NCBI RefSeq assembly: GCF_026683955.1
Contig: NZ_CP113343.1
Location: forward strand, 434,001-498,000
From: Arthrobacter sp. MMS18-M83
Lineage (GTDB): Bacteria; Actinomycetota; Actinomycetes; Actinomycetales; Micrococcaceae
Length of the DNA: 64,000 nucleotides
Direction: 5' to 3'
Below the pieces are notes generated by a model that saw nothing but the letters and a program-made list of their open reading frames with translations, did not search any database and was not told where the DNA came from. Position 1 is the first letter of the stretch. Each line of letters starts with the position of its first letter. The position numbers and the translations under genes were made by a program. Of the stretch, positions 13,321 through 44,350 are shown one piece after another.

Positions 13321-13338
13321 CTACTATACATGGCTAAC
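13321..13338 (-). promoter_or_regulatory. island motif copy A (promoter/operator of the HpcH gene)
   Basis: Reads GTTAGCCATGTATAGTAG on the minus strand. Bases 11-16 (TATAGT) form a near-perfect -10 box, placing transcription start at or near GTG 13316. It is one of eight related 18-mers in the island. Confidence 0.7.
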
Positions 13339-13429
13339 TATTTTTACTAGATTACAAGGTGGTACTGCTCTGCAGTCCGGATGCTCCAGCGCCGGTGCAT
13401 TCAAACGGATACAAAGAGGGTGAGCCGCA

Positions 13430-14533
13430 GTGGCACAATCTGTCGTCGTAGTGGGGGCCAGCGGGCTGATTGGTTCAACGACCGTTCAGGAGTTCGCCGA
13501 TCACGGCTGGCACGTTACCGCAATTTCGCGGCGCCGGCCGAACGTAGCTCCGGGGACTCCCTTCACCCACCTGCCGATAGACCTGCTCGATTCAGGCGCG
13601 ACCACCGAGGCGCTCGAGCGGCTGGCACCGGTCACTCATGTCGTCTACGCCGCGGCTTTCGAAAAGCCGGGGCTGGTTGCTGGATGGTCGGACCCCGAGC
13701 AGATGGAGACGAACCTGCTCATGCTGCGAAACGTTCTCGAACCCCTCGCCCGATCGGGAAGTCTCGAACACGTCACGACAATGCAAGGCACGAAGGCGTA
13801 TGGCGTGCATCTGCACCCTATCCCCATCCCCGCTCGAGAACGCTATCCTCGCGACGACCACCCGAACTTTTATTGGTTGCAAGAAGACTTTCTGAAACAA
13901 TCGGCCGAGCAGTACGGCTACAACTGGACCATCTTCCGACCGGTTCAGGTCGTTGGGAGCGCATACGGCGTCGCGTATAGCACCCCGTCGGTCATCGGCG
14001 CGTACGCCGCGGTCTGCCGCCAGGAGAACTTGCCGTTCGGGTTTCCCGGCGGCCAAATCAACCCTGTGAGACAGTCAGTGGACGTCGCCCTGGTCGCCGC
14101 GGCGATACGGTGGGCAACCCACGCGCCGTCGGCCTGGGGAGAGCATTTCAACCTGACCAATGGCGAGGTGTTCTCGTGGCAGGAGTTGTGGCCGACATTC
14201 GCCGATATATTTCGGATAAAGGCGGCCGAACCGACTCCCGTCAGCCTCGCGCGCTTTCTGCCCGAGCACGATCAGACGTGGAAGCGCATCGTTGAGCAGT
14301 ACGATCTTCTGCCCTTGTCAATACTCGATGTCGTTGGCAAATCCCACATGTACGCCGACTACACGTTCGGGTACGGCGTGGAGACACCCCCACCGCCCAC
14401 ACTCGTGAGCACTATCAAGGTGAAGCAGGCAGGCTTTACCGAAGTCCGCGATACCGAGGCCACCTACCGAAAAGCGATCGAATCGCTGATCGATCAGAGG
14501 GTTTTGCCTGGCGTCTCGCATCGTTCTGCGTAA
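13430..14533 (+). CDS. PRISE-like NADPH-dependent short-chain reductase (progesterone 5-beta-reductase/iridoid synthase type)
   Basis: 367 residues. It begins VVVVGASGLIGSTTVQEF, an extended-SDR dinucleotide site. It then shows THVVYAAAFEKP, TMQGTKAYGVH and FYWLQEDFL; these match the diagnostic PRISE patterns (NxxMLxN, MxxGxKxY, FYYxQED with the catalytic Tyr). The family reduces 1,4-enones and enals, including monoterpenoid and steroid enones. GTG 13430 has AAGAGGG nine bases upstream. It is followed two bases later by an MFS transporter, so the two are one unit, divergent from the HpcH gene. Confidence 0.8.
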   Translation: MAQSVVVVGASGLIGSTTVQEFADHGWHVTAISRRRPNVAPGTPFTHLPIDLLDSGATTEALERLAPVTHVVYAAAFEKPGLVAGWSDPEQMETNLLMLRNVLEPLARSGSLEHVTTMQGTKAYGVHLHPIPIPARERYPRDDHPNFYWLQEDFLKQSAEQYGYNWTIFRPVQVVGSAYGVAYSTPSVIGAYAAVCRQENLPFGFPGGQINPVRQSVDVALVAAAIRWATHAPSAWGEHFNLTNGEVFSWQELWPTFADIFRIKAAEPTPVSLARFLPEHDQTWKRIVEQYDLLPLSILDVVGKSHMYADYTFGYGVETPPPPTLVSTIKVKQAGFTEVRDTEATYRKAIESLIDQRVLPGVSHRSA

Positions 14534-14535
14534 CG

Positions 14536-15765
14536 ATGGCCGAGGCTGAAGGGTTCGCATCGCCTGACACTCCGCCATCGCCGCTCGGACCGATCTTGCG
14601 TCAGCTAACACCGTCGGTATTTCTGCCCGCCATGATCTACGAGATCGGGAACGGCGCAATCGCCCCAATCATCGCGCTGACAGCGATCGGACTCGGTGCC
14701 TCTCCCGCACTCGCGGCGCTGCTCGTGGGGCTTCTTGGTATCGGCCGCGTACTCGGCGACATTCCCGCCTCGTGGCTTGCGGAGCGCTTCGGCGACCGTC
14801 GGGCAATGGTGATGGCGGCAGGGCTCGAAACCGTGGCTCTGCTGGGCTGCTATTTCAGTCCATCGATTGCGATCTTCGCTGTCGCTCTGTTGCTCTCGGG
14901 CATGTCAACGGCGACATTCTATTTGGCCAGACAGTCGTACCTGGCCGACGTAGTGGCTCTCGCCCACCGGGCACGCGCGATGTCGACCCTCGGAGGATCT
15001 CATCGTATCGGCCTCTTCGTCGGACCGTTCATCGGTGCTTTGGTCGTGAGAGCAGTAGGCCTGAACGGCGCCTATCTCGTGGCCATCGCCGCGACGGTGT
15101 GCGCCGCTGTGCTGTTGCTGACGATCGCAGACATCGCCCCTCCACGAGGCCAGGGGGCAGCGATTCGGGGCGAGAAGTCCAGTCGAGCCGTTCTCGTCGA
15201 GCATCGAATCATCTTCTCCACCCTCGGCGTGACGATGATCGGCTGCGGCGCGGTGCTGGCTGCCCGGCAGACGGTTGTTCCCTTGTGGGCCGAGCATCAG
15301 GGAATCGGGGCCGCTGAGACGAGCCTGATCTTCGGCACGGCGGGAGCAGTGGAGATGCTCCTTTTCTATCCGGCCGGCAAGATCGCCGACCGTTTCGGCA
15401 GGCTAGCCGTCGCACTGCCTTGGATGCTCGTGCTCGGCGGCGCCATCGCGGCTGTTCCTTTCACCTCTGATCCCCCTTCTCTCACCGCCGTGGCGATCAT
15501 CATGAGCATTGGCAGCGGCATAGGAGCGGGAACCCTCATGACGCTCGGCGCCGACGCGGCCCCTCTCGTGGGTCGCCTCCGCTTCTTGGGAATCTGGCGC
15601 GTGCTCAGCGATTCCGGATATGCAGCCGGGCCGGCTGTCCTGTCAGCCATCGCGGTCGGCACATCGCTCTCCGTCGGAATCACGGCGCTCGGCGCCATGG
15701 GCCTCGGCGCCGCCGCGGCCCTGAAGGTGTTCGTGCCGAAACACGCGGCCACTCGACCGAACTAA
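14536..15765 (+). CDS. MFS transporter
   Basis: 409 residues, about 12 hydrophobic segments. The loop after helix 2 reads GIGRVLGDIPASWLAERFGDRRAM, a good version of the MFS motif A, and AGKIADRFGRLAVAL repeats it in the second half. The N-terminus is cytoplasmic. It probably imports or exports a substrate or intermediate of the pathway encoded around it. It begins two bases after the PRISE-like gene. Confidence 0.82.
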   Translation: MAEAEGFASPDTPPSPLGPILRQLTPSVFLPAMIYEIGNGAIAPIIALTAIGLGASPALAALLVGLLGIGRVLGDIPASWLAERFGDRRAMVMAAGLETVALLGCYFSPSIAIFAVALLLSGMSTATFYLARQSYLADVVALAHRARAMSTLGGSHRIGLFVGPFIGALVVRAVGLNGAYLVAIAATVCAAVLLLTIADIAPPRGQGAAIRGEKSSRAVLVEHRIIFSTLGVTMIGCGAVLAARQTVVPLWAEHQGIGAAETSLIFGTAGAVEMLLFYPAGKIADRFGRLAVALPWMLVLGGAIAAVPFTSDPPSLTAVAIIMSIGSGIGAGTLMTLGADAAPLVGRLRFLGIWRVLSDSGYAAGPAVLSAIAVGTSLSVGITALGAMGLGAAAALKVFVPKHAATRPN

Positions 15766-15885
15766 GGGCTATATCCCGATCCCCCACCCGTCGAAATCAC
15801 CAGCGCGAGCGACTCCTAGTGTCGAGATGAGTCGGTTCGGGATGCACCCTCCCTCGATTGACCCCTATTGGAAAGTCGAGAGACG

Positions 15886-16790
15886 TCAGAAGGAGTGCTC
15901 GGGGCCGGGGAACTGGCCCGAACGCACTTCTTCTCCGTACGCCTTGGCGGCGTCGCTGAGTGCGGTCCGAACGTCCGCGTATTGCTTGACGAATTTGGCC
16001 ATCTTTCCGCCGCGCAGGCCGGCCATGTCCGGCCACACCAGAACCTGCCCCGTGGTCGCATTCCCGGCGCCGATGCCGATCGTCGGAACCGGGACGGCGG
16101 CATCAACGGCCGCGGCGGTTTCCGCCGGCACCATTTCCATGAGTACACCGAAAGCGCCCGCCTCCGCCAAGGCCACGGCGTCCTCGATCAACCGCTGAGA
16201 GTCGTCCCCCGGCCCTGAACGCGGTAGCCGCCAAGAGCATGTTCGCTTTGCGGAGTGAAGCCGATGTGTGCCATGACCGGGATGCCGGCCTGGACCATTG
16301 CCCTGACCGTCTCCGCGTAAAAGCCGCCGCCCTCGATCTTCACCGCGTGGGCGAGACCCTCCTTCAGGAACCGGACACCCGTGGCCACTGCCTGTTGCGC
16401 GGAGACCTCATAGCTGCCAAACGGCAGGTCGGCGACCACGAGGGCGCGCTTTGCCGAACGCGCAACGGACCGGCACAACGGAAGCAACTCATCGACGGTG
16501 ACGGGCAGGCTGGTCTCGTTTCCGAACACGTTGTTGGACGCCGAATCGCCAACGAGCAACACCTCAATGCCCGCCTGGTCGAAGATCTCGGCACTGTACT
16601 GTTCGTAGGCCGTGAGCATGGCAAAGCGCTTCCCGTCGGCCTTTGCCTGCTGCAGGTGATGGATGCGGATCCTGCCCACCGGCTTCTTAGCCTCATCCGG
16701 CCCAGGAAGGCCGGCCCCGGAAGGACCGTTTCCATAGGGGGCCGGAACTTCGGCGGACGGGCTTGGGCGAGGGTTGTTCCTTATCTCCAT
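15886..16790 (-). pseudogene. panB: panB, ketopantoate hydroxymethyltransferase, frameshifted
   Basis: The reading frame from 16790 gives a good Pan[76 protein letters not shown]. It stops early after VQGRG at about 16188. The rest continues in another frame ([40 protein letters not shown]) to 15886. The break is a one-base loss in a C run at 16206-16210. Repaired, the protein would be about 300 residues, slightly long for PanB because of an N-terminal extension. It may be a real mutation or a sequencing slip. It lies just downstream of panD (coenzyme A synthesis). Confidence 0.85.
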
Positions 16791-16792
16791 GA

Positions 16793-17221
16793 TTAGTTCA
16801 CCGAGCCGTTGTCTAGAGCGAAGGGCGGACGCATCATTCCTGGGGTGATGGCTTCGGCAGGGTCGGTGCCAAGCTGGACGATCCTGTTGTGATGATCAAC
16901 GTGGACCACTCTGGGGTCGTAGGCCCCGGCTTCTTCGGTGGTCATGCTGGCGTAGCTGATGAGGATGACGACGTCGTTTACGTCGACTAGGTGTGCGGCG
17001 GCGCCGTTGATGCCAATCACACCGGAGCCGCGTTCACCGGGAATGGTGTAGGTCTCCAGACGGTTGCCGTTGGTGACGTCCACGATCGCGACGAGCTCGC
17101 CGGCCAGGATATCGGCCGCTTCCAGCAGATCCAGGTCCACTGTGACTGAGCCGACGTAATGCAGGTCCGCGTGAGTGACGGTGGCACGGTGGATTTTGGA
17201 CTTGAACATTGTGCGGTTCAT
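16793..17221 (-). CDS. panD: aspartate 1-decarboxylase PanD
   Basis: 142 residues, the usual size. The self-processing site is at HYVGSV: cleavage before the Ser gives the pyruvoyl group. [21 protein letters not shown] is the expected N-terminus, preceded here by three extra residues (MNR), so ATG 17209 is an alternative start. Catalytic-site stretches [18 protein letters not shown] and [11 protein letters not shown] are intact. It makes beta-alanine for pantothenate and CoA. It precedes panB by two bases. Confidence 0.93.
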
Positions 17222-17246
17222 TTGCTGCTCCAGATCGAGATTTCGT

Positions 17247-17459
17247 TCATAGTCTTAGGAAGGCACGATCAGTGACTGCTTCTATGGGCACGCCGCCATC
17301 AATCGAAACGATAATGCCTCGCGTTGGAGTTCGTGTCAGCCGCTGCATCGCTCCAGTGTCCACTGTGCCGCTGGATTCACGGACAGTCTTTCCGCCAAGT
17401 CGTATCTCAACGTACTGCCCAAGGGCACGTTGCCAGTCCGGTTGCAGATGAAGGTCCAT
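17247..17459 (-). CDS. small hypothetical protein upstream of panD
   Basis: 70 residues, starting [23 protein letters not shown] 17459 has GAAGGGGAT nine bases upstream and the frame ends 26 bases before panD, so it is probably co-transcribed with panD and panB. No family is recognised; the sequence is soluble and basic/polar, with no membrane segment. Confidence 0.5.
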
Positions 17460-17562
17460 GCTTGATCCCCTTCTGTTCCCCGTGGCTCCTCGCCACCCCG
17501 CCATGTCCGGGCCCGCGTGGGCACCGGCGGCGGTCGCTGTCAGGCCGTTCACGCCACTCGTG

Positions 17563-18510
17563 TCATTCGGGCACCCTGTCTGATACCTCGCCGAGCCGAC
17601 GGAGCTCGTCGGCCGTGAGTTCGATGTCAGCCGCCGCCAGCAGATCGGGCAGCTGTTCGACCGTGCGCGCCGAGGCAATCGGTGCCGCGATGTCCGGCTG
17701 GGCCAGCAGCCACGCGAGCGCGATCGAGCTGAGTGCGCACTCGCGCTCCGTGGCGATCTTGCGTAGTTCCGACACCACCATGAACGATTCGTCGCTGACG
17801 TAGCCGTTCAGGAAGCTTTGCCGCGATGTGCCGTGGATGTCGTCGGCGTTTCTGTATTTGCCGGTGAGCAGCCCGGCTGCGAGGGCGAAGTACGGGGTGA
17901 CCGCGAGGTGATGCTGCGCCACGCGAGGCGCCAGTTCTCGCTCGTAGGGCACCCGTCTGACCAGGTTGTATTGCGGCTGCAGGACCACCGGCCGAGCGAA
18001 CCCGTTCGCCTCCGCAACGGCGAACCACTCGTCGATTCTGTCGCCGCTGTAGTTCGACAACCCGATATAACGCACCGCGCCGCGCCTGACCAGCTCATCG
18101 AACGCGCCTGCCGTTTCCTCGAGTGGCACCGTAGGGTCGTCGTAATGCGCGTAGTAGATGTCGATGTAATCGGTGCCGAGCCGTGTGAGAGACGCGGCAG
18201 CGGCGGCGAGAACGTTGCTGCGGGACAGCCCTGGGAATGACGGGTGTCTGCTGACTTTAGTTCCGATGACAACGCTTTTTCTGTTGATCCGCTGCGCCAT
18301 CCATTCGCCGATGATCGTCTCGGATTCACCGCCGGAATGCCCCGGCGGCCAGGCCGAATACACGTCGGCAGTATCGATGAAGTCGCCGCCGGCCTCTCGA
18401 TAAGCATCGAGTACCTCGAACGATTGTTCTCGATCAGCGGTCCAGCCGAAGACATTGCCACCGAGAGATAAGGGAAATACGTCGAGCGTGCTCGAACCGA
18501 CCAGCGCCAT
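17563..18510 (-). CDS. aldo/keto reductase
   Basis: 315 residues, a standard AKR barrel. The catalytic Asp and Tyr are in DTADVYSAW (about 43-51), the catalytic Lys in VIGTKVSRHP (about 82), and a His in YYAHYDDPTVP (about 120). The NADPH site AAPIASARTVEQL is near the C-terminus. It reduces an aldehyde or ketone, probably a pathway intermediate. ATG 18510 has AGGG upstream and motif copy B in its promoter. Divergent from the hydrolase gene. Confidence 0.85.
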   Translation of the reverse strand: MALVGSSTLDVFPLSLGGNVFGWTADREQSFEVLDAYREAGGDFIDTADVYSAWPPGHSGGESETIIGEWMAQRINRKSVVIGTKVSRHPSFPGLSRSNVLAAAAASLTRLGTDYIDIYYAHYDDPTVPLEETAGAFDELVRRGAVRYIGLSNYSGDRIDEWFAVAEANGFARPVVLQPQYNLVRRVPYERELAPRVAQHHLAVTPYFALAAGLLTGKYRNADDIHGTSRQSFLNGYVSDESFMVVSELRKIATERECALSSIALAWLLAQPDIAAPIASARTVEQLPDLLAAADIELTADELRRLGEVSDRVPE

Positions 18511-18532
18511 TTTGCCCTGCTTTCTTCCGAAA

Positions 18533-18550
18533 ATATTACACGTAGCTAAC
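18533..18550 (-). promoter_or_regulatory. island motif copy B (between divergent AKR and hydrolase genes)
   Basis: Reads GTTAGCTACGTGTAATAT on the minus strand, with TGTAAT as probable -10 for the aldo/keto reductase. On the plus strand TACACT at 18560-18565 is a likely -10 for the hydrolase, about seven bases before its ATG, so that transcript may be leaderless. Confidence 0.65.
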
Positions 18551-18572
18551 TAATTTCTGTACACTGACTTAC

Positions 18573-19388
18573 ATGCCATTCCTCAACACCCACGGCGCCG
18601 AGCTCTACTACGAGACAGCCGGAAACACCCACCACCCGGTACTCGTTCTGCTCCACGCGGGCGTGGCGACGCTTCGCATGTGGGATGCCCAGATCGATGC
18701 ACTGGCGACCGACCATTTCGTCGTCAGGTTCGACGCGCGCGGGTATGGCCTCACGACGAGCGACGGCACCCCGTTCACGAACCATGGTGACGTCGTCGCT
18801 CTGCTCGATCACCTCGGCATGCCGGCCGCAACTCTGGTCGGATCGTCAAGGGGCGGCATGATCGCCGTCAATACGGCTCTGGAGCACGCTGACCGGGTTG
18901 ACGGCGTCGTTACGATCGGATCGGGCATCGAGGGTTTCCCACCCACCACCCCGACCGATTCCGAGAGCGCCCTCTTCGCAGGAATATCCGAACTGACTGC
19001 CGTCGGAGACAGGCCGCAAGCGAAGCGGCTCGAGGTGGAGCTGTGGGTCTTCGGGCCCCAGCGTGATGCGAAGGACCTCGACCCCGCGTTCGTCGCGCGC
19101 GCTTTCGAACTCAACCAGCCCAACGTCGAGCTGGGCGAGGAGCCTCCGAACTCAGTGCCGCTCCACCCTTCGGCATATAGCCGGCTCGCCACGATGACCG
19201 CACCGGCGCTGATCACGGTGGGTGACTTTGACGTGTCGCGCATGACGATCATCGCTGATGCTCTCGTCGATGCCCTTCCGTATGCTGAAGGGCATCGGTT
19301 CGCGAATTCCGCGCACTTGCCGAACGTCGAGGAGCCGCACGAGTTTCTCCGTGTGCTCAGGTCGTGGCTCGGGCGCCACTCCTTATGA
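18573..19388 (+). CDS. alpha/beta hydrolase
   Basis: 271 residues. The oxyanion region VLVLLHAGVATLRMWD is at about 26-40, the nucleophile elbow GSSRGG at about 91-96, an acid in TVGDFDVSRM, and the catalytic His in FANSAHLPNVEEP near residue 247. It cleaves an ester, lactone or C-C bond; lactonase or enol-lactone hydrolase activity would fit a ring-degradation route. No ribosome binding site precedes ATG 18573, consistent with a leaderless mRNA. Confidence 0.85.
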   Translation: MPFLNTHGAELYYETAGNTHHPVLVLLHAGVATLRMWDAQIDALATDHFVVRFDARGYGLTTSDGTPFTNHGDVVALLDHLGMPAATLVGSSRGGMIAVNTALEHADRVDGVVTIGSGIEGFPPTTPTDSESALFAGISELTAVGDRPQAKRLEVELWVFGPQRDAKDLDPAFVARAFELNQPNVELGEEPPNSVPLHPSAYSRLATMTAPALITVGDFDVSRMTIIADALVDALPYAEGHRFANSAHLPNVEEPHEFLRVLRSWLGRHSL

Positions 19389-19410
19389 ACGGAGCGTTCG
19401 CCTGGCCAGG

Positions 19411-20227
19411 TCACCGCGCCTGCCAGACTGGCTGGCGCTTCTCGACGAATGCTTGCGCACCCTCGCCGGCATCCTCCGAGTCGAAGATCTCTGCCACCGT
19501 GGCACCGATATTCAGCCACGACTCATCCATCGTTCCAGACAGACTGATTGACGTTCTCATAGACCAATCGCTTCGACGCCTGCACGGCGAGCGGTGCATT
19601 GCCGGCGATGCCACGGGCGAGGTTCATCGCCACGTCCACGTGGGTTCCCGCGGGCGCAACCTTGTTCACTAGCCCCCAGCTCTCGGCGGTCTCGGCCGAA
19701 ATGGGCTCGCCCGTGAGCAAGAGGTGAAGGGCTACCTTCTGCGGCAGCTGCTGCGCTATGCGCGGTGCCCCGCCTCCGGCAGCGAACAATCCGCGTGTCA
19801 CTTCGGGCAGACCGAGTCGCGTGCCCTCTTCGGCAACGATCAGGTCGCAGGCGAGTGCGATTTCGAGCCCTCCGCCGAGGGCGAAGCCATGCACCGCGGC
19901 GATGATCGGCTTCGCTGAGAAATGCCGGACGAAGCCGGCGAAACCCCACTCGGGATGCTCGGGCAAAACCAGGCCCTCTCCGGCCGTGAGGGCCTTGAGA
20001 TCTTGGCCGGCGCAGAACGCCTTGCCGGCGCCGGTGATGACGGCGACGCGAAGCTCATCGGTGTTGTTCAGCAGCTCGATGGCAGAGCCGAGTGCCGCAG
20101 CAAGCTCGAAGTTCACCGCGTTGCGTGCCTCGGGGCGGTTCAGGGTGATGAGCAGTACGTGACCGAGGTTCTCGGCTCGAACCACCCCGTCGAGCAAGAC
20201 GGTCGAATCCGGAGTCTGGTCAGGCAT
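19411..20227 (-). pseudogene. enoyl-CoA hydratase/isomerase with a C-terminal frameshift
   Basis: The crotonase is canonical: AGKAFCAGQDLKAL, AAVHGFALGGGLEIALACDL with the catalytic Glu, and LGLPEVTRGLFAAGGG with the second Glu. The frame closes at 19523 after NQSVWNDG. The expected end (ESWLNIGATVAEIFDSEDAG to WQAR) is in another frame, ending at 19411. The break is a four-base GATG duplication near 19540-19550. About 40 residues, normally part of the oligomer-forming C-terminus, are lost or replaced. ATG 20227 overlaps the thiolase stop. It could retain activity. Confidence 0.8.
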
Positions 20228-21419
20228 GTTCGGCTTGTTTCGGGACTCGTATGATGAGCGCATCACCTTGGCCGCCTCCGCCGCAGAGCGCGGCGGCGCC
20301 GATTCCGCCGCCGCGTCGTTTGAGCTCGAGGGCGAGCGTGAGCAGAATGCGGGCTCCTGACATTCCGATGGGGTGACCGATCGCAATCGCTCCCCCGTTC
20401 ACATTCACCCGGTCCAGGCCGATGCCGAGCTCGGCGGCGGAAGCAAGTGCGACGGCGGCGAACGCCTCGTTGATTTCGATGAGATCGAGATCGGCCGGTT
20501 TGATTCCCTCGCGTTTGCACGCCAGCGCTATCGCATTCGCAGGCTGTGACTGCAGGCTCGAATCCGGGCCGGCAACCATGCCGTGGGAGCCGATCTCGGC
20601 GAGCCAGGTGATTCCGGCGGCCTCCGCCTTGTCTTTGTCCATGATGATCAGCGCGCATGCGCCGTCAGAAATCGGCGAAGCGTTGCCTGCGGTGATGGTG
20701 CCGTCTGCCCTGAATGCCGGGCGCAGCTCTCCCAGCGTGGCGGTTGTGGTGTCGGGCCGGATGCTCTCGTCTCTGCTGAGGAGGATGGGTTCGCCCTTTC
20801 GCTGCGGTATCTTCACCGACACCACCTCGTCATCGAAGAGTCCGTTCTGCCACGCGGCTGCCGCACGCTGATGCGAGGCGGCCGCGAAGGCGTCTTGTGA
20901 TTCGCGGCTCATCGGGTCCTCGTCGTTCACCCGCTCCGTGAGCAGCCCCATCGCTTCGGCCGTGAATGCGTCTTCGAGACCGTCGACGGCCATGTGGTCG
21001 ACCATCGTGATCGGGCCGAACTTCGTGCCCTGGCGGGAGCCTGTCAGCAAGTGCGGCGCCTTTGTCATCGACTCCTGCCCACCTGCGACGATAACTCCGA
21101 AGTCTCCTGTACGAATGAACTGGTCTGCCATGATCACCGCCTGGATGCCCGAAAGGCACACCTTGCTCACCGTGGTGGAGGCGACCGACATGCTCACGCC
21201 GCCTTTGTTGGCTGCCTGTCGCGCGGGCAATTGACCCGCCCCTGCGGTGAGAACCTGGCCCAGGATGACATAGTCCACGGCTGAGGCCGGCACGGCTGCC
21301 CGCTCGAGGGCTGCAGCGATGGCAATCCCGCCCAGGTCGGCCGCGTCGAACGACGACAGGCCGCCGAGGAGTTTTCCGATGGGAGTCCTCGCTCCCGCCA
21401 CAATGACCGAGCTGCTCAT
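20220..21419 (-). CDS. thiolase (acetyl-CoA C-acyltransferase)
   Basis: 399 residues, full-length thiolase. The nucleophilic Cys is in [11 protein letters not shown] at residue 88. [20 protein letters not shown] carries the catalytic His, and [14 protein letters not shown] carries the second Cys. It cleaves a 3-oxoacyl-CoA with CoA at the end of the beta-oxidation branch. It follows the HSD10-like dehydrogenase gene by about 60 bases and overlaps the crotonase gene behind it. Confidence 0.92.
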
Positions 21420-22245: not shown

Positions 22246-22257
22246 TTCTTCTCCATT

Positions 22258-36394: not shown

Positions 36395-36439
36395 TGACAC
36401 TCACTCCTTTGTAAGTTCAAAACACTCTCCGACAAAACA

Positions 36440-36565: not shown

Positions 36566-36583
36566 GTTAACCTAGTATACGAA
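36566..36583 (+). promoter_or_regulatory. island motif copy E (promoter of the rightward CoA-transferase operon)
   Basis: Reads GTTAACCTAGTATACGAA. TATACG serves as likely -10, giving a leader of about 25 bases to GTG 36613. Flanking GTATA and TATAC arms make this copy the most palindromic. Confidence 0.65.
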
Positions 36584-36612
36584 CGGTTCAGCGCGACACA
36601 AGGAGGTATCTC

Positions 36613-37860
36613 GTGGACTCATCCCAACGGGCCGCGGACGGACCCCTCGCCGACCTGCACATCGTCGATCTGTCGAGTTATGTAGCCGGCCCCTCCGCGA
36701 CGATGACGCTGGCCCAACTCGGTGCCGACGTCATTCGCATCGACCCGCGAGGCGGCGCTCCCGACACCCGGCGCATGCCGCTCGCTCCCGACGGGAGCAG
36801 CCTCTACTGGGCCGGCCTCAACCGGGGAAAGAGGTCACTCGAACTCGACCTACGTTCAGAAGAGGGCAAGTCCACCGTGCGCCGGCTCTTGGCCGTCGGC
36901 GGGCAGGGCCATGGCATCGTCGTCACCAACGCGGTAGGGCAGAACTGGCTCTCGTACGAGGAGCTGCGCCGGGTTCGCCCCGATCTCATCCACGTTCACC
37001 TCGCCGGCCGAAGCGATGGATCCTCGGCAGTCGACTACACCATCAACGCCGAAACTGGCCTGCCCTTCATCACCGGCCCCGTGAACATGAAAGAGCCGGT
37101 CAACCATGTTCTACCCGCTTGGGATCTGCTCGCCGGGCTGCATGCCGCCCTCGCAGTTCTCACCGCTGAGCGAATGCGGCGCGCTACCGGACTCGGCCAA
37201 TCGGTGAGCCTAAACCTCGCAGACGTCGCCGCGACCACCCTCGCCCAGCTCGGCTATGTGGCCGATGTGGTCGTGAACGGGGCCCACCGGCGTCGCGAAG
37301 GGAATTCCTTGTACGGCTCCTACGGCTGCGACTTCGCGGCGAGCGATGGCGGCCGATTCATGATCGTCGCCCTCACCGCTCGGCACTGGAAGGCGCTCGT
37401 TGCATTGACGGGTACTCAGCATGCCATCGCCGGCATCGAATCGAGTCTCGGCATCAACTTCGCCGACGAAGCCGTTCGGTACAAGTACCGCGATCTCGCC
37501 TCCGCGCTCTTTGCGCCTTGGTTCGCCCGCCTGAACAGCGACGAGACCCGCGCGCAGCTCAAGGCGAGCTCGGTGCTCTGGAGCGAGTACCGTTCGGTGG
37601 AACAGATGGCGACAGCCCCAGACGGCATCGTGCGGCAAAGCGCCCTTTTCGACGATGTCGACCACCCCGGCATCGGTGTCTACCCGGCGCCTCGCTCGGC
37701 CACCACGATGAGTGGATGGTCGGCCCCCGCCAGTCGCCCGGCGCCGCTGCTCGGCCAGCACTCCGACGAGATTCTTGCCGAGTGGCTCGGCACAATGACA
37801 ACCGAAGCCGCAGCCGCATCCGATGCGCTGCAACTCAGCGCTGACGGATCCGGGAGATGA
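36613..37860 (+). CDS. family III CoA-transferase (second copy)
   Basis: 415 residues. LHIVDLSSYVAGPSATMTLAQLGADVIRIDPRGG and LNRGKRSLELDLRSEEGKS mark the family. In the catalytic region the usual 'ENFRPG' is changed to VVTNAVGQNWLSYEELRRVRPDLIHVHLAG, as in a racemase- or specialised transferase-like subgroup. It probably activates or transfers CoA to a pathway acid. GTG 36613 has AAGGAGGT upstream. It overlaps the next gene by four bases. Confidence 0.83.
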   Translation: MDSSQRAADGPLADLHIVDLSSYVAGPSATMTLAQLGADVIRIDPRGGAPDTRRMPLAPDGSSLYWAGLNRGKRSLELDLRSEEGKSTVRRLLAVGGQGHGIVVTNAVGQNWLSYEELRRVRPDLIHVHLAGRSDGSSAVDYTINAETGLPFITGPVNMKEPVNHVLPAWDLLAGLHAALAVLTAERMRRATGLGQSVSLNLADVAATTLAQLGYVADVVVNGAHRRREGNSLYGSYGCDFAASDGGRFMIVALTARHWKALVALTGTQHAIAGIESSLGINFADEAVRYKYRDLASALFAPWFARLNSDETRAQLKASSVLWSEYRSVEQMATAPDGIVRQSALFDDVDHPGIGVYPAPRSATTMSGWSAPASRPAPLLGQHSDEILAEWLGTMTTEAAAASDALQLSADGSGR

Positions 37861-38768
37861 GTCCAATGTACGCCGTGCAATTCGACTTTCCGGGCGGCCG
37901 TGAAACGCTCAGCTACAGAGAGGCGCCTGAGCCGACCCTGGGCGCCGGTGAGGTGATGATTGGCTTCGAAGCCTCGAGTATCAACCCTGCCGATTTGAAA
38001 ATCAGCGGCGGCCGCATCGCACCTCGGGCCGGAACGTCACCGTTCACGCTGGGCTGGGACGTGGCGGGAATCGTTGACCAGGTGGCGCCCGGCGTCGAAG
38101 GATTCAGGGTGGGCGACCGGGTCATCGGAATGTCGACGATGGCCTCGACCGGTCGGGGAACCTGGTCGCAGCTCGTCTCGCTGCCCGCGACCTCACTCGC
38201 CCTGGCACCCACAAGGATCGACCCCACCGTGCTCGCCCAGCTGCCCCTGGTTGGTCTGACCGCGCTGAAGGCGGTGGACGAACTCGGACCCCTGCCGGAT
38301 CAGACTGTCCTGGTCGTCGGCGCGGCCGGGGCGGTCGGCAGTTGTGTCGTGCAACTGTTGGCAAGGCTCGGCGTCGAGGTTCATGCTCTGGTTCGAACCC
38401 GCGAGCGGGCCGACGCGCTCGCTTCGGAAGGACAGGTTACGGCGGTCTACACAGGCGAAGCTCCGACATCCACTTTCGACGCGATTATCGACGCGGCTGG
38501 AATCGACGCCGCCTATGCCCTTCGGCCGGGCGGAAGCTACGTGACCTGCGTTCCCGGCACGCTGCCCGAGAGCGTCGGAGCGGGCGGATCGATTGGCGCG
38601 ACCGCGATCGTGCCGGAGTCGGGCGCGAACCTCGCCACGCTTCTCGGTTTCCTGGCCGACGGAAGCCTAAGCCTCGGCGAACCCTCCGTGTTCAGGCTCA
38701 GCGACATCGACGCCGCCTTGACAGCGTTCGAGAACCGACGCGCGCGTCGAACGGTGCTGATCGCATGA
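37857..38768 (+). CDS. zinc-independent MDR oxidoreductase (quinone oxidoreductase-like)
   Basis: 303 residues. Residues 1-120 are a GroES-like domain (PGAGEVMIGFEASSINPADLKI-type sequence, GWDVAGIVDQVAPGVEGFRVGDRVIG). The Rossmann part has VLVVGAAGAVGSCVVQLLARLG. No zinc ligands are seen. Such NADPH enzymes reduce enones or quinones. It is coupled by ATGA overlaps on both sides. Confidence 0.87.
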   Translation: MSPMYAVQFDFPGGRETLSYREAPEPTLGAGEVMIGFEASSINPADLKISGGRIAPRAGTSPFTLGWDVAGIVDQVAPGVEGFRVGDRVIGMSTMASTGRGTWSQLVSLPATSLALAPTRIDPTVLAQLPLVGLTALKAVDELGPLPDQTVLVVGAAGAVGSCVVQLLARLGVEVHALVRTRERADALASEGQVTAVYTGEAPTSTFDAIIDAAGIDAAYALRPGGSYVTCVPGTLPESVGAGGSIGATAIVPESGANLATLLGFLADGSLSLGEPSVFRLSDIDAALTAFENRRARRTVLIA

Positions 38769-39250
38769 GCGGCGTTTCGCCGGCGTCACTGGAGTGGGGT
38801 ATAAGGCGCACGTTCATCGAATACGTCTCGGGCCTCGACGACGGCGAGATCACCGCCGAGGAGCCAGCCACCGTTTCCGGGCTGGGCCGCTTTTCGTTCC
38901 CCGCGCAGCCCGGTTCAGAGCTCGACCCCAAAACTGGATTTGGTGTGCTCAAGTTCAGCGGCACGGCGCACGCCAGCGGCCATTTCGGCCTGATGAGCGT
39001 GACCATCACCGACCCTTGGATCGAAATCGGCCTCGATTGCGCGGCGCTGACTATTCCCGATCCCGACCGCGATCCCGTATCAGGAAAGCGCATCGCCTTG
39101 GCCACTCTGACTCTCAAGACGGAAGACGGATCAAACGTCTGGGTAGACATCGCCTCGACCCTGGCAGTCGAGGCGATCGGCATCTTCAATCGGCAATACG
39201 AAAGCGGCAGCGCGATGGACCCGGTCACCGTGGTCTACCCCCAGCGCTGA
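38765..39250 (+). CDS. HtaA-domain protein without signal peptide
   Basis: 161 residues covering a single HtaA-like domain: LEWGIRRTFIEYVSGLDDGEI at the start, then FGVLKFSGTAHASGHFGLMSVTITDPWIEI, and a late VDIASTLAVEA. In corynebacteria HtaA domains bind haem at the cell surface through Tyr and His; the FIEY Tyr and SGHFG His may be equivalent. Here there is no signal peptide or membrane anchor, so it would be cytoplasmic. It lies between an oxidoreductase gene and the P450 reductase gene, so a haem-related role next to P450s is an inference. Confidence 0.65.
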   Translation: MSGVSPASLEWGIRRTFIEYVSGLDDGEITAEEPATVSGLGRFSFPAQPGSELDPKTGFGVLKFSGTAHASGHFGLMSVTITDPWIEIGLDCAALTIPDPDRDPVSGKRIALATLTLKTEDGSNVWVDIASTLAVEAIGIFNRQYESGSAMDPVTVVYPQR

Positions 39251-39286
39251 ACTCACCACGAAACACCAGTCACATAGGAAGTAGGA

Positions 39287-40282
39287 ATGATGGCAACTCT
39301 GGCAGAACACAGCACAGAGCGAGAGGCTCCGAACGACCCCAACGCCCGACTCACGCTCGTCGTAGCGGCCCGAACGGTCGAAGCAGACGGCGTCGTCTCG
39401 CTCACCCTCGTCGACCCCGAGAGGGGGGCCCTGCCAACGTGGACTCCGGGGTCGCACATCGATCTGCACCTCAGCGACGACTTGGTTCGGCAGTATTCGC
39501 TGTCGTCGAGTTCGGGCGACACTGAGAAGTGGCGGGTAAGCATCCTCAAGGAGAGTGAAGGACGCGGGGGTTCGCACGCCGCGCACGAGCGCATCGCCGT
39601 GGGCTCGCCGGTGACGGTCAGCATGCCGCGCAACCACTTCGTTTTGCATCCCTCAAAGAACTACGTCTTCGTCGCCGGCGGCATCGGCATCACGCCGATC
39701 GTTTCGATGATCGAAGCGGCCCAGCAGAGCGCCTCAAGCTGGAACCTCGTCTACGCGGGCCGCTCACGTTCGTCGATGGCGTTCGTCGAAGAGCTCGCCC
39801 ACCACGGCGACAGAGTAAAGGTCGTGGCCGGTGACACCGATGGCCGCATGGACTTCGCCGCCTACTTCGCCGAGGTGCAGCCCGACACCCTAGTGTATGC
39901 CTGTGGCCCCGAGTCACTTCTCACCGCCCTTGAGGCCGCGATCACCCACTGGCCGGTCGATAGCCTGCACACCGAGCGCTTCGTAGGCAAAGGGGTCGAC
40001 GAGTCAGCTGACGTCGACTTCGAGGTTGAATTCGCCGACAGCCACCTGAAACTGACCATTCCCGCCGGAAAGTCGATTCTCGAAATCGCCGAGGAGAATG
40101 ACCTGCCGGTGATCTCGTCGTGCGGCGAGGGTACCTGCGGCACCTGCGAGACCGTCGTTCTGGCCGGGTTGCCCGACCATCGCGACTCGATTTTGACCGA
40201 CAGCGAAAAGGCCGCCAACAAATCGATGTTCATCTGTGTGTCACGTTCGATCGCGGGATGCCCACTGAAGCTCGACCTATAG
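39287..40282 (+). CDS. flavin oxidoreductase with C-terminal 2Fe-2S domain (phthalate dioxygenase reductase type)
   Basis: 331 residues. Order: flavin-binding barrel (GSHIDLHL, RQYSLSSS, about 25-120), NAD(P)-binding domain (VFVAGGIGITPIVSMI, about 125-235) and a plant-type ferredoxin domain (SCGEGTCGTCETVVL, then SMFICVSRS, about 240-331) with four Cys. This self-contained chain passes electrons from NAD(P)H to an oxygenase and resembles the reductase part of CYP116B fusions. It can serve both P450s. ATG 39287 follows GGAAGTAGGA; a second ATG is adjacent. Confidence 0.9.
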   Translation: MMATLAEHSTEREAPNDPNARLTLVVAARTVEADGVVSLTLVDPERGALPTWTPGSHIDLHLSDDLVRQYSLSSSSGDTEKWRVSILKESEGRGGSHAAHERIAVGSPVTVSMPRNHFVLHPSKNYVFVAGGIGITPIVSMIEAAQQSASSWNLVYAGRSRSSMAFVEELAHHGDRVKVVAGDTDGRMDFAAYFAEVQPDTLVYACGPESLLTALEAAITHWPVDSLHTERFVGKGVDESADVDFEVEFADSHLKLTIPAGKSILEIAEENDLPVISSCGEGTCGTCETVVLAGLPDHRDSILTDSEKAANKSMFICVSRSIAGCPLKLDL

Positions 40283-40315
40283 GGATTGGACAGACGATGG
40301 ACATCTTCATATATT

Positions 40316-40337
40316 GTGGCCATAGCTACGCGGCCAC
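40316..40337. promoter_or_regulatory. inverted repeat before the MarR gene, likely operator
   Basis: GTGGCC and GGCCAC form perfect six-base arms with a ten-base spacer that includes CATAGCTACG, a partial match to the island motif (TAGCTATG on the minus strand). It lies 13 bases before the MarR start, a good place for autoregulation. Confidence 0.5.
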
Positions 40338-40349
40338 GCGGGCACAAAA

Positions 40350-40877
40350 GTGAGTAAAACACCTTATGAACTATGGCGTGATCCAATGACACCCGACGCT
40401 CCGACCAGTGCGCACCCCGTCTCGCAGACGAACCTGATTCGCCTGCGCATGGCCCTCGGGCGGCTCGGCAGACTGCTACGCCAGCAGAACAACGACGGGC
40501 TACCCTACGCCCTGATCTCGCTGATCATGACCATTCACCGCCTGGAACCGGTCACAGCGAAAGAACTCGCCGAAAGCGAAGGTGTCACCCCACCCGCCGT
40601 CACGCGCTCCCTCAACCGCCTCTTCGAACTCGGCCTCATCTCACGCGAGGAGCAGGCCACGGACCGCCGCGCGCAGTCGATCCGCTTGGCAGACCTGGGC
40701 GAAGCCAAACGCATCGAACTGCTGCAGAAGCGCGAGATCTGGCTCACCGAACACATCGATCAACTCACTCCCGACGAGGTCGACAAACTCATCCAGGCTC
40801 TCCCCGCCCTCGAAAAGCTGACGACACTTCAGGTGAGTTCCCCGCCCTCCTCTGACGATTTACCGAAGACGGCATAA
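40350..40877 (+). CDS. MarR family regulator, candidate regulator of the island
   Basis: 175 residues. The winged helix is well kept: TIHRLEPVTAKELAESEGVTPPAVTRSLNRLFELGLISREEQATDRRAQSIRLADLGEAKRIELL. N- and C-terminal helices form the dimer interface. MarR proteins usually bind aromatic or acyl-CoA effectors and repress catabolic genes. GTG 40350 and ATG 40386 are both possible starts; neither has a strong ribosome binding site. It lies between the reductase gene and a broken copy of itself. Confidence 0.85.
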   Translation: MSKTPYELWRDPMTPDAPTSAHPVSQTNLIRLRMALGRLGRLLRQQNNDGLPYALISLIMTIHRLEPVTAKELAESEGVTPPAVTRSLNRLFELGLISREEQATDRRAQSIRLADLGEAKRIELLQKREIWLTEHIDQLTPDEVDKLIQALPALEKLTTLQVSSPPSSDDLPKTA

Positions 40878-41286
40878 CGACGATTACCGAAGATGGCATA
40901 ACCCTCATTTGGCGTTATGTCTTCATCTCGCTGATCATGACCATTCACCGCCTCGAACCGGTCACAGCGAAAAACTCGCCGAAAGCGAAGGTGTCACCCC
41001 ACCCGCCGTCACGCGCTCCCTCAATCGCCTCTTCGAACTCGGCCTCATCTCACGCGAGGAGCAGGCCACGGACCGCCGCGCGCAGTTGATCTGCTTGGCA
41101 GACTTGGGCGAAGCCAAACGCATCGAACTGCTCGAGAAGCGCGAGATTTGGCTCACCGAACACATCGATCAACTCACGCCCGACGAGGTCGACAAACTCA
41201 TCCAGGCTCTCCCCGCCCTCGAAAAGCTGACGACACTTCAGGTGAGTTCCCCGCCCTCCTCTGACGATTTGCCGAGGATGGCATAA
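40515..41286 (+). repeat. direct tandem repeat, about 360 bp, offset about 410 bp
   Basis: The 3' two-thirds of the MarR gene and its tail at 40515-40877 reappear at 40925-41286 with only scattered differences. The near identity implies a recent event. Confidence 0.85.
40911..41286 (+). pseudogene. truncated, frameshifted tandem copy of the MarR gene
   Basis: From about 40925 to 41286 the DNA repeats 40515-40877 almost base for base. About the first 55 codons are missing and one base is lost in GCGAAA(G)AACTC near 40969, which breaks the frame. A few substitutions are present (for example Gln-Ser to Gln-Leu after DRRA). The short tail ACCGAAGA-GGCATAA occurs a third time between the copies. 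It is a partial tandem duplication, not a working gene. Confidence 0.85.
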
Positions 41287-41289
41287 CCC

Positions 41290-42573
41290 TCATTTAGCGT
41301 TCAGCACCAGCGGCAGCGTCAGGGGCGTCCTCAGCGATCGGCCGCCCCATTCGAACGAGTCTTCGGCCAGCGTCGCGTCGGGGAAGCGTTCCGCCATCTG
41401 GCGGAACAATGCGACGGCCTCCATGCGGGCCAGACCCGCCCCGAGGCAAGAGTGCGTTCCCATACCGAACCCGATGTGCATCCGGCTCTCTTTTCGCTGG
41501 ATGTCGAGCGAATCCGGGTCAGTGAACACAGAGGGATCGCGGTTCGCCGCCGCGAGTACTCCAATGACCGTATCGCCGACCTCGATCTGCACCCCGTCGA
41601 TGACCCTCGACTGCGCAGCAACGTACGGCAAGAAGTGGGCGGGTGTGACGAACCGGGTCAGCTCTTCGACTGCTTTCACGGCCAGGTCGGGTTCTGCGAC
41701 GAGGGCGTCCCACTGGTCGCGGTGGGTCAGCAGGCTCAGCATGCCGATTGTCAGCAGATTGCTGGTTGTTTCGTGGCCGGCGAAGATCATCAACGCGACC
41801 ATCGCCTTCGATTCGTCGTGGCTCATCAGACCCGAACGCTCGGAATCGATCAGCGCGGCGATGAGACCGGTGGTTGCCCCTGATTCCCTCTGGCGCTCGA
41901 GCAGTACCTCGATGTAATCCATCAGCCCCGCATACGCCTGGGCCCCCTCGATCGCCGACTCTTCCGAATCGGCGTTGAACTTGTTCTCTGCGATCCGCTT
42001 CGCCCACTCATGAATCTGCTCGAGATCGCCAAGCGGGATGCCCAGGAGGTCGCCAAGCACGGTGAGGGGCAGCGTGTACGCGAATCGTTTGAAGTCGACG
42101 ACGCCATCGACAACAGCGAGTTCGTCGAGACCCTGCATGACGCGCGCCGTTACTTTCCCATCCATCTCAGCCTTCAGCGAGCGAATCGCGAACGGCGGCT
42201 GAACGAGCGCCTTGATGCGCGGATGATCGGGCGGGTCGAGTCGCACCAGCTGCTGGAACTCCTGGTCGAGCACGGAGTCGAATGCTTCACGCCCCTCAGG
42301 CGAGAACCGCTCGCGAGCCTCTTCGTACCGTCGCGAGTGCTTGGTCGCCGCCCTGCTGTAGAGCACGTTGTCGTCACCCAGCAGCTCACGTACATCCTTG
42401 TATCGACTCAAGACCACCGCATCGTGGAGTCGCCAGACCGGATGCTCCTCACGAAGCTGGTTCCAGGTGGGAAAGGGGTCGGCGAGCATTTCGGAGTCGC
42501 CAGCCAGGAGCAACTGGACTCGTTCGAGAAGCGGCAGACCTGATTTGGGAGTCATCCCTGACTTGAGTGTCAT
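41290..42573 (-). CDS. cytochrome P450 (second)
   Basis: 427 residues. I-helix IFAGHETTSNLL, K-helix ExxR in EELTR, and haem loop FGMGTHSCLG with the haem Cys at about 376. The N-terminus has no membrane anchor. It is not close to the first P450 in sequence, so each probably has its own substrate or position. ATG 42573 has GAGG upstream; the longer frame to 42954 overlaps the upstream gene and has no such site. Confidence 0.93.
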   Translation of the reverse strand: MTLKSGMTPKSGLPLLERVQLLLAGDSEMLADPFPTWNQLREEHPVWRLHDAVVLSRYKDVRELLGDDNVLYSRAATKHSRRYEEARERFSPEGREAFDSVLDQEFQQLVRLDPPDHPRIKALVQPPFAIRSLKAEMDGKVTARVMQGLDELAVVDGVVDFKRFAYTLPLTVLGDLLGIPLGDLEQIHEWAKRIAENKFNADSEESAIEGAQAYAGLMDYIEVLLERQRESGATTGLIAALIDSERSGLMSHDESKAMVALMIFAGHETTSNLLTIGMLSLLTHRDQWDALVAEPDLAVKAVEELTRFVTPAHFLPYVAAQSRVIDGVQIEVGDTVIGVLAAANRDPSVFTDPDSLDIQRKESRMHIGFGMGTHSCLGAGLARMEAVALFRQMAERFPDATLAEDSFEWGGRSLRTPLTLPLVLNAK

Positions 42574-42583
42574 CGCCTGAACC

Positions 42584-43111
42584 TCATGCCGTCTTCGCGG
42601 GCAACGCAAACGGGTCTTGGAAGGGAACGCCGTTCGCCTCGGCTGCCTCGCGGATCCAGTCGCCGATCTCTGCGGCGATCTCGTGGGAAACGAGCTCGAT
42701 CCACATACCGGGCGCTTCGTCGTTGTAGTGGAATGTCGCTCTGGCGATTCCGCCGTTCTCGTCGACGCCCGACAGCTCGCGACGGTATCCGCGGCGCTCG
42801 AGATCCGCGGCCGCACCCACCAGGTCATCGGTGAAGTAGCCGAGGTGGTGAACGCGCCGACCACCGGTGAGATTGAGGTAGGGTGTTGCGTCGATCTGCT
42901 CGAGAAGCTCGATGTAATGCGGGCCCTGCAGTGAATAAGTGAACCGCACCTCACGCCCGACGACGCCGTCAGGGCAGAGCATCGGGACCGTCGATGTGCG
43001 CGGCGGCGCCCACATCAGATCGAGTGCCGGTCCCATCGTGTCCATCGCATTCTGCAGATTGTCGACGATGATTCCGGTGTGATAGAGCTTCAGCATCGGC
43101 TTTGATGACAT
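42584..43111 (-). CDS. VOC (glyoxalase/extradiol dioxygenase fold) protein
   Basis: 175 residues with two beta-alpha-beta-beta-beta units: KLYHTGIIVDNLQNAMDTM (first metal His), HYIELLEQI (Glu), VHHLGYFTDDLVGAAADL (second His) and MWIELVSHE (last Glu). The fold supports isomerases, epimerases and lyases; metal-ligand positions look complete. It may act as an epimerase such as methylmalonyl-CoA type. ATG 43111 follows AGGAGGAA. It heads the operon ending in the second P450. Confidence 0.8.
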   Translation of the reverse strand: MSSKPMLKLYHTGIIVDNLQNAMDTMGPALDLMWAPPRTSTVPMLCPDGVVGREVRFTYSLQGPHYIELLEQIDATPYLNLTGGRRVHHLGYFTDDLVGAAADLERRGYRRELSGVDENGGIARATFHYNDEAPGMWIELVSHEIAAEIGDWIREAAEANGVPFQDPFALPAKTA

Positions 43112-43156
43112 TGCTTCCTCCTGTGAAAAGCGCACGCTTAGTGGAGCGATAGACAA

Positions 43157-43174
43157 ATACTACACATAGCTAAC
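43157..43174 (-). promoter_or_regulatory. island motif copy C (promoter of the VOC/P450 operon)
   Basis: Reads GTTAGCTATGTGTAGTAT on the minus strand, matching copy B at 16 of 18 bases. TGTAGT or the overlapping TAGTAT may be the -10. Leader to ATG 43111 is about 40 bases. Confidence 0.7.
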
Positions 43175-43200
43175 TAATACTTCCAGAGTGAGATTGCCGA

Positions 43201-43640
43201 TCATCCGCGCACCAGCTGATTGAACGGCAGCCGGCGGTTGTCGTCCTTGTCGGCGGGCAACCCGAGAATCCGTTCGGTAATGATGTTTCGCTGACTCTCT
43301 GGGCGACCCTCGCGCGCCAACCCGACAAGCCGAGCAGCCTCGAGCCCCGGTTCGGCGCCGATCGAAACCCGCTCATTGCTGAGGGTATCGCTCACAACGC
43401 TCCATCCGCCCCCACACAACGCCGTCGAGGGGCAGTACAACGTCGTCGAGGAAGACTTCGGGGAAGTGTGAATCGCCCGTCATCTGGCGAAGCGGTCGAA
43501 GGGCCACCCCCGGAGCGGCCATGTCGACACCCCGCAAAATAGCGGACAATACGCGCGTTTCTACTCGGCGGCGCCATGGGCCAGAAGCACAGGGCCTATG
43601 CGAACGTGAACCACATGCACGCCGTGCGCCACGATCAGGG
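43201..43640 (-). pseudogene. acyl-CoA dehydrogenase remnant
   Basis: Fragments in two frames match the middle of an acyl-CoA dehydrogenase: GVDMAAPGVALRPLRQMTGDSHFPEVFLDDVVLPLD, then, after a shift near 43420, GWSVVSDTLSNERVSIG. Sequence further along to 43201 is divergent (ITERILGLPADKDDNRRLPFNQLVRG). Both the N-terminal domain and the C-terminal catalytic part are missing and a stop lies near 43560. The dead gene is on the same strand as its neighbours. Confidence 0.75.
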
Positions 43641-43783
43641 TTGGTGGGGTTCGCGAGCTTCGCGGCATCCGTCGTAGTCATCGCTGCAGCATGGGCCAGA
43701 CTGCGACCAATCACCCTGCGGTGACTGGATTCGCTCGGGGCAAGGTCTCGCGCTGACCCCGAGACTCCGCAACCGCGGTGCGC

Positions 43784-44284
43784 CTAAGACCGCAACTCGG
43801 CGAATGCCGCATACGACGGATCGTCTGCGGTACGAGAGCTGCTCTCACCAATGGTGATGTCAGCGACCTTCTGTTCGTAGAAGAAGTCGCGGCGGTAGAA
43901 GCGACTGTCGATAGCCCAGCGACCATCGCGCTTGGAAAGCTTGTCGATGTAGCGGCCATAGACGCTGCGCACCATGTAGTCCCCGCCCTCCTGGCGAATG
44001 AGAGTGGCATTGACGTAGGTCTCACTCGCAGCAAGGTCGCCATTCACCTCAATCGTCGAGTTCGACATCTGATGATGACTCGTAATGAGGGTGCGGTTGT
44101 AAACATTCAGCCATTCGATGAGCTCGCGGCCAGGCCCCGAGAAGATACCCGGCCCGTAATCTCCAACCCCGTCATCGTGAAAGATCGAGTAACCGATCTC
44201 ATTGCCCACGCGGTCCATGGCCCGAAAATAACGGAGCAGCACATTCTGAATTTCCTGCTGTGCGATCACATCGTCGAGAGTCAT
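43784..44284 (-). CDS. SnoaL/NTF2-like protein (third in the island)
   Basis: 166 residues. LDDVIAQQEIQNVLLRYFRAMDRVGNEIGYSIFHDDGVGDYG is the NTF2-like start. ITSHHQMSNSTIEVNGDLAASETYVNATL and RYIDKLSKRDGRWAIDSRFYRRDFF complete the fold. The double His (SHHQ) is common in this group and may line the active cavity. ATG 44284 has GAAAGGA seven bases upstream. Confidence 0.8.
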   Translation of the reverse strand: MTLDDVIAQQEIQNVLLRYFRAMDRVGNEIGYSIFHDDGVGDYGPGIFSGPGRELIEWLNVYNRTLITSHHQMSNSTIEVNGDLAASETYVNATLIRQEGGDYMVRSVYGRYIDKLSKRDGRWAIDSRFYRRDFFYEQKVADITIGESSSRTADDPSYAAFAELRS

Positions 44285-44332
44285 CACAGAATCCTTTCAT
44301 CATTGTAAGGAGAGATGGTTCAGATCACACAA

Positions 44333-44350
44333 CTACTTTACCTAGCTAAC
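44333..44350 (-). promoter_or_regulatory. island motif copy D (between divergent SnoaL-like and MBL genes)
   Basis: Reads GTTAGCTAGGTAAAGTAG on the minus strand; TAAAGT is the likely -10 for the SnoaL-like gene. The rightward MBL-fold gene starts 88 bases away and may share the site. Confidence 0.65.

Follow-up and report, generated by a model that had tools for sequence, protein, structure and literature searches.

Eight pseudo-palindromic sites in a catabolic island of Arthrobacter sp. MMS18-M83 as candidate operators of a local MarR regulon

Local catabolic regulons under a MarR-type protein are a kind of system already known, and their regulatory logic is ordinary for MarR proteins. In the excerpted text of the papers cited here, CouR of Rhodococcus jostii RHA1 controls a regulon of p-hydroxycinnamate catabolism and has a coenzyme A (CoA) thioester as its inducer (PMC4737184), SlyA, with the site TTAGCAAGCTAA, antagonizes H-NS at several operons in Escherichia coli (PMC5797941), and CrtR of Corynebacterium glutamicum serves the carotenoid operon (PMC5401885). 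Here we analyzed a 64,000-nucleotide stretch (C1:434001-498000, called the window) of the 5.11-Mb genome of Arthrobacter sp. MMS18-M83, in which a short motif recurs eight times within a 33-kb block of breakdown genes that also encodes a MarR-family protein, MarR1. The reading that we favor, at a probability of about 0.83, is that the eight sites would be the operators of one local regulon, bound by dimeric MarR1 and keeping the genes repressed until a pathway intermediate releases the protein. The island and the proposed regulator gene are as follows:

12453..45478, no strand assigned: catabolic island with two cytochrome P450s, a ferredoxin reductase, two CaiB-type proteins, an NDP-forming acyl-CoA synthetase (ACS), enoyl-CoA hydratases, a thiolase, a Liv-type ABC importer and others
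40350..40877, plus strand: marR1, MarR-family regulator of 175 residues, Pfam MarR, the proposed operator binder

Common to CouR and the island are an actinobacterial MarR protein, several promoters of one catabolic gene set and inverted repeats at the promoter, whereas the genes differ, and the CouR box, cATTGA-N5-TCAATg, lies over the predicted -35 element while the island repeat, TAGTTARC-N3-GYTAACTA, lies at the -10 element or the start. A CouR-type regulon was considered and set aside, because the aligned island sites share this different repeat and not the CouR box. With SlyA the island shares the half-site TTAGC; the half-sites are 2 bp apart for SlyA and 3 bp apart here, and SlyA acts at several operons in E. 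coli whereas here one local island is concerned. CrtR resembles the island in being actinobacterial, in its divergent marR gene and in its palindromic promoter site, and is unlike it in its single operon, in its TTAA motif and in that isoprenoid pyrophosphates influence its binding. The excerpted text of a paper on auxin MarR regulators (PMC9613470) contains no matching operator, and no description of the island, the pathway or the motif was found among the open-access papers that our literature searches listed.

The first-pass annotation of this DNA had placed copies of an 18-bp motif at 13321, 18533, 25544, 31626, 36440, 36566, 43157 and 44333. All eight are present there, 31626, 36440 and 36566 reading on the plus strand and the other five on the minus strand, and they almost certainly form one operator class. 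Their coordinates as 19-bp elements and the genes they stand before are given below:

13322..13340, minus strand: operator 1, separating the CitE/HpcH-like lyase gene (minus, with GTG 13316 as its likely start) from the SDR-MFS unit, which runs divergently (plus, open reading frame (ORF) from 13430)
18534..18552, minus strand: operator 2, between the aldo-keto reductase gene (start 18510, minus) and the alpha/beta hydrolase gene (start 18573, plus)
25545..25563, minus strand: operator 3, heading the P450a / SnoaL-like / thiolase unit (start 25449, minus)
31624..31642, plus strand: operator 4, heading the acyl-CoA synthetase / CaiB / enoyl-CoA hydratase unit (start 31583, minus); orientation opposite to that of the gene, overlapping the promoter-like TTTACA-16-TAAACT
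36438..36456, plus strand: operator 5, heading the Liv-type ABC transporter unit (start 36394, minus); orientation opposite to that of the gene, 8 bases past the promoter-like TTGACT-16-TAGATT
36564..36582, plus strand: operator 6, heading the CaiB2-to-marR unit (start 36613, plus); overlapping the -10 element TATAGT; missed by the window-trained matrix and recovered by the orthologue-trained symmetric matrix
43158..43176, minus strand: operator 7, heading the VOC / P450b unit (start 43111, minus)
44334..44352, minus strand: operator 8, between the SnoaL_4 gene (start 44284, minus) and the MBL-fold hydrolase gene (start 44381, plus)

The unit heads and divergent pairs were assigned by eye from the layout of the ORFs, and each of the eight that were recognized has one candidate operator. 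From the site centre to the assigned start codon we measured 15-105 bp, which corrects the 20-100 bases proposed earlier, and the divergent genes at 18573, 44381 and 13430 lie 30, 38 and 99 bp away, respectively. One copy had been described as inverted relative to its gene; the inversion is real, but it applies to two copies, 31626 and 36440, each of which most likely serves a gene on the minus strand. The likely GTG start of the CitE-like gene falls ~5 bases after operator 1 (13316-13340), and its mRNA may be leaderless.

The recurrence of the motif stood up to analysis and its asymmetric 18-bp shape did not, as the sites are better read as the 19-bp pseudo-palindrome TAGTTARC-N3-GYTAACTA, with flanking TTA and TTTG lengthening the motif to 24 bp. 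Several sites score on the opposite strand as well, at a 3-bp offset, which puts the symmetry axis at position 8 of the 18-mer. The arms pair at 39 of 64 positions in the eight sites, compared with an average of 2.05 of 8 in 2280 flanking 19-mers. When a symmetric matrix was built from 15 sites (seven from the window and eight from Phytohabitans), all eight sites topped the window ranking, with 36566, which lay outside the training set, at 21.0, 36440 at 17.7 and the next place, 46816, at 17.0. Invariant columns of the seven-site alignment include the left-arm AGTT and C, and the right arm of the directly oriented copies, TAGTAT or TAATAT, looks by eye like a -10 hexamer. The case for the dyad rests on its recurrence at the same axis in other lineages, which is described below.

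Across the whole genome, the pattern GTTAGCYAYGTRTARTAK with up to three mismatches gave seven matches. Those inside the island, four in number, have 0, 0, 0 and 2 mismatches, and the three outside it have 3 each; the same pattern written backward gave 13. A flank-extended 23-mer matched four places, all within the island, and its control none. A sequence-only covariance model of seven sites reported seven genome matches at E ≤ 10, which are those seven sites, leaving 36566 unreported; the model was trained on its own matches, so the informative part is the absence of other places. The first-pass annotation had proposed such a scan, naming equally good sites at random across the genome as a result that would speak against a shared operator, and had noticed no such sites outside the island. 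No equally good site appeared elsewhere, and all 7 of the covariance-model matches lie inside.

Held-out scoring separated most of the sites from background. In a leave-one-out test of the 24-bp matrix on 400 kb of the own genome, seven sites scored 20.4-36.9 against control maxima of 15.0-16.4, and 36566 scored 8.1, a value equalled or beaten by seven control positions. Trained on Phytohabitans sites only, the 24-bp matrix gave the top seven ranks in the window to seven of the eight sites, with scores of 17.4-28.7, and six of these exceed the control maximum of 18.8. The Phytohabitans-only symmetric 19-bp matrix, applied to the window and to 400 kb sampled from the genome, placed seven of the eight above the control maximum of 12.0, with 36566 at 20.2 and 36440, at 11.7, just under it. 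Each unit head recognized by eye thus has a site and the genome scan gives none as good elsewhere, as expected of a single regulon, with the eighth site, 36566, resting on the orthologue-trained symmetric matrix.

A promoter scan of 31500-45000 gave five promoter-like matches, compared with an expectation of 1.9 from shuffled sequence. Two of them overlap a site, another stops 8 bases short of one and a fourth precedes marR1, and no promoter was called at 43157 or 44333 in this interval. The earlier proposal that the sites cover the likely -10 boxes holds in the scan for 31626 and 36566, but at 36440 the -10 element ends 8 bases before the site, and the other five were placed by eye. These promoter-like matches and the TAGTAT/TAATAT right arm of the direct copies would also be accounted for if the motif were promoter similarity only, a -10 region and spacer shared by the island. 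We regard this as highly improbable and reject it as a sole explanation, because two sites are inverted to their own genes, the left arm is strict (AGTT and C among the invariant columns), the dyad is found again in Phytohabitans and in a further genome, G319, and the genome scan returned no such site at other promoters. A protein-binding site, which the first-pass annotation had preferred on the strength of the inverted copy, is the better reading. As for the direction of control, some MarR proteins are known to activate (PMC4737184, in its excerpted text), and the lack of called promoters at 43157 and 44333 would suit activation or dual regulation by MarR1. Where promoters can be placed, however, the sites cover or follow the -10 element, the usual position of a repressor site; repression by MarR1 is probable from this layout, and an activating or dual role is unlikely.

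The gene context points to MarR1 as the binding protein, very probably so in our judgment. Of 47 distinct ORFs scanned window-wide (40 against NCBIfam and 20, seven of them new, against Pfam; a subset of all ORFs, some in a wrong frame), only MarR1 (40350), its tandem copy (40909) and MarR2 (46848) are regulators, and inside the island the first two are the only ones among the ORFs scanned. Two further features lie at marR1:

40355..40373, no strand assigned: weak dyad at the start of marR1, a possible autoregulatory site recognized post hoc; score 12.0, and 10.2 against a control maximum of 12.0
40909..41286, plus strand: frame-shifted tandem copy of marR1, with 350 of 363 aligned bases identical and one 1-base gap

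AZCC_0090, a related genome of the genus, has just one match to marR1 above 90% identity, and a short product of the tandem copy without the N-terminal part is conceivable. MarR1 matches PF01047 at 45.7 bits (cut-off 24.6) and so belongs to the MarR family. Its best sequence match in the PDB is 9u7b (44 bits), followed by SlyA 3q5f (36.4 bits). Neither of two narrower assignments held: MarR1 scores 35.8 bits against SlyA (NF002926), below the 120-bit threshold, and its best NCBIfam match, the Rv0880 equivalog (NF052438), reaches 53.7 bits against a cut-off of 220. We assigned the recognition helix from the alignment to SlyA and from the SlyA residues named in the excerpted text of PMC4737184; the aligned stretch would be EGVTPPAVTRS in MarR1, EGVSPPSVTRS in Phytohabitans and EGVTPPSVTRS in G319, and it differs in four more distant homologues and in MarR2.

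Among 198 genomes of the genus, the motif occurs at least twice only in this genome and in AZCC_0090; three others have a single match at 3 mismatches, and the scattered matches of the backward control pattern include none in these two genomes. The island marker ECH3 (E ≤ 1e-90) was likewise found, among the matches listed, in these two of the 198. All seven strong sites are kept in AZCC_0090, where 36566 has a weak counterpart and the MarR co-occurs with the motif. A scan of the genomes of 84,980 species with P450a yielded 54 loci (up to 10 kb on each side), of which three share the rest of the island, namely those of AZCC_0090, Phytohabitans suffuscus and P. maris. At these 54 loci, MarR matches (tblastn, E ≤ 1e-3) were found only in the two Phytohabitans loci, the AZCC_0090 locus ending before its marR.

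The Phytohabitans MarR orthologues are 52-53% identical to MarR1, and in both species marR is divergent to the P450a unit with the two best sites in between; more sites lie between the P450 and VOC genes and, in P. suffuscus, before ACS. The sites between marR and the P450a unit of P. suffuscus are the top ones for the Arthrobacter 24-bp matrix (33.0 and 24.6, against a maximum of 12.7 in 200 kb of its own genome). G319, which comes from a class sample of 394 genomes, has a MarR orthologue of 47% identity, and its contig carries P450a (55%), VOC (52%), ECH3 (74%), CaiB1 (64%) and ACS (54%). The best G319 site, TAGTTAACGTCGTAAACTG, separates ACS from marR and scores 28.8 with the symmetric matrix (P. 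suffuscus control maximum 9.6), and a weaker one lies between the P450 and VOC genes. ECH3 at E ≤ 1e-90 is found in two of the 394 class genomes, this one and G319, and G319 alone of the five genomes in its family has the MarR at E ≤ 1e-25. The protein at 40350, which the first-pass annotation had suggested, is therefore the best candidate: it co-occurs with the motif in AZCC_0090, both Phytohabitans species and G319, and the best-scoring sites in the last three lie upstream of its orthologue; in the window, marR1 itself has only operator 6, at the head of its unit, and the weak dyad at 40355.

We also scored upstream regions in 24 loci from 24 genomes, two taken from one MarR search, eleven from the class sample (ten of one family) and eleven from a further MarR search; these are the best MarR matches for which loci were returned (L086, L087 and L090-L095 of the first search being left out), and all but three have a MarR with less than 45% identity. 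In 22 loci the top site is no more than 300 bp upstream of marR. Of 300 symmetric matrices with permuted columns, 5 reach this number and 1 equals the observed mean upstream score. The half-site TTAGC/TTAAC may be old in this MarR subfamily, which fits the SlyA site TTAGCAAGCTAA.

The sites could instead be bound by MarR2 or by some regulator from another part of the genome. MarR2 (46848-47276) matches Pfam MarR at 47.1 bits, lies ~1.4 kb past the last listed gene of the island and has an AT-rich palindrome 13 bases before its ORF, which scores 17.0 and 17.2 with the two symmetric matrices. This palindrome, TATATAACCAACTTATATA, however, differs from the island sites, MarR2 is only 25% identical to MarR1 over 91 residues, and its matches at E ≤ 1e-3 in the searched stretches of AZCC_0090, P. 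suffuscus and P. maris are the MarR1 orthologues only, at 32%. With a palindrome of its own and no orthologue in those stretches, MarR2 is an unlikely binder, and a remote regulator would leave the sites beside marR1 orthologues in other lineages unexplained, so that binding by any protein other than MarR1 seems quite improbable. At the MarR2 locus (46816-47276), the next gene, at 47318, is of the MFS efflux type.

Several observations weigh against the regulon as we read it. In the window, marR1 has just the weak dyad 40355 at its own start, although it lies downstream of operator 6, and a promoter-like match (40287-40315) stands right before it without a strong site; marR1 and panD-panB (gap 17221-17563) were treated as internal genes without a site of their own. 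The Phytohabitans-only symmetric matrix also puts 46816 (17.2) and 48833 (14.5) above the control maximum of 12.0, and a covariance model trained on Phytohabitans sites, being too weak genome-wide, finds in the own genome one site, operator 7, at E 2.25. The Phytohabitans sites were chosen with the Arthrobacter matrix, so the forward and reverse tests are not fully independent, and AZCC_0090 is too close to serve as an independent case. In the 24-locus test, permuted matrices favor AT-rich upstream regions too (mean 11.1 of 24), and the best sites reach 25.2-28.2 only in the three close orthologues, the remaining loci scoring just 2.1-14.1. For the dyad, column permutation restricted to the seven sites of the window makes a weak test, in which 766 of 10000 permutations do as well, and arms taken from different sites pair nearly as well as arms of the same site (37.8 vs 39), so the symmetry belongs to the consensus and not to covariation.

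Regulation by MarR1 would then work as follows. MarR1, made from a plus-strand unit of the island, would bind TAGTTARC-N3-GYTAACTA as a dimer, and the bound site, overlapping or following the -10 box at the unit heads, would block RNA polymerase. A pathway intermediate would release MarR1, upon which the genes for uptake (the Liv-type ABC transporter), activation (acyl-CoA synthetase and CaiB), oxidation (the P450s) and beta-oxidation-like steps would rise jointly. That the inducer is a CoA thioester is possible, an idea that comes from the analogy with CouR and from the acyl-CoA synthetase and CaiB genes. In the direct copies the right arm might double as the -10 hexamer (TAGTAT, TAATAT); this would account for the asymmetric 18-mer seen at first. 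A tentative broader reading is that an undescribed catabolic pathway (P450, NDP-forming acyl-CoA synthetase, CaiB and enoyl-CoA hydratases) with its own MarR sensor and operators exists in at least three separate actinobacterial lineages, the sensor reading a CoA-thioester intermediate, a half-site doubling as a -10 box and, in Arthrobacter, the pathway having its own importer. In MarR1 and its sites we propose a concrete regulon of one protein, eight sites and one island, and other actinobacteria show this pairing too; the candidate operators mark which genes belong to the pathway and so may help in finding its substrate, and MarR1 would be a sensor open to inducer screening. Public RNA-seq data exist for AZCC_0090 (GSE309279; PMC13011423, in its excerpted text).

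The best PDB relatives of the two P450s are CypX (268 bits) and CYP125MRCA (186 bits), and another island protein resembles 2-methylfumaryl-CoA isomerase (352 bits to 8apq). The aldo-keto reductase gene is followed by panD and a short panB-like gene of 200 residues (16188-17221), whose matches stop at about position 160 of panB models of 259-267 positions. An ORF with an HtaA domain match (38342-39250, 79.7 bits) overlaps the quinone-reductase-like gene at 37857-38768. Between the SnoaL_4 gene and operator 7, a fragment at 43373-43714 matches an acyl-CoA dehydrogenase model weakly (19.8 bits) and is probably a gene remnant. The place at 48833-48851, scoring 14.5, lies at the end of a sugar-porter ORF.

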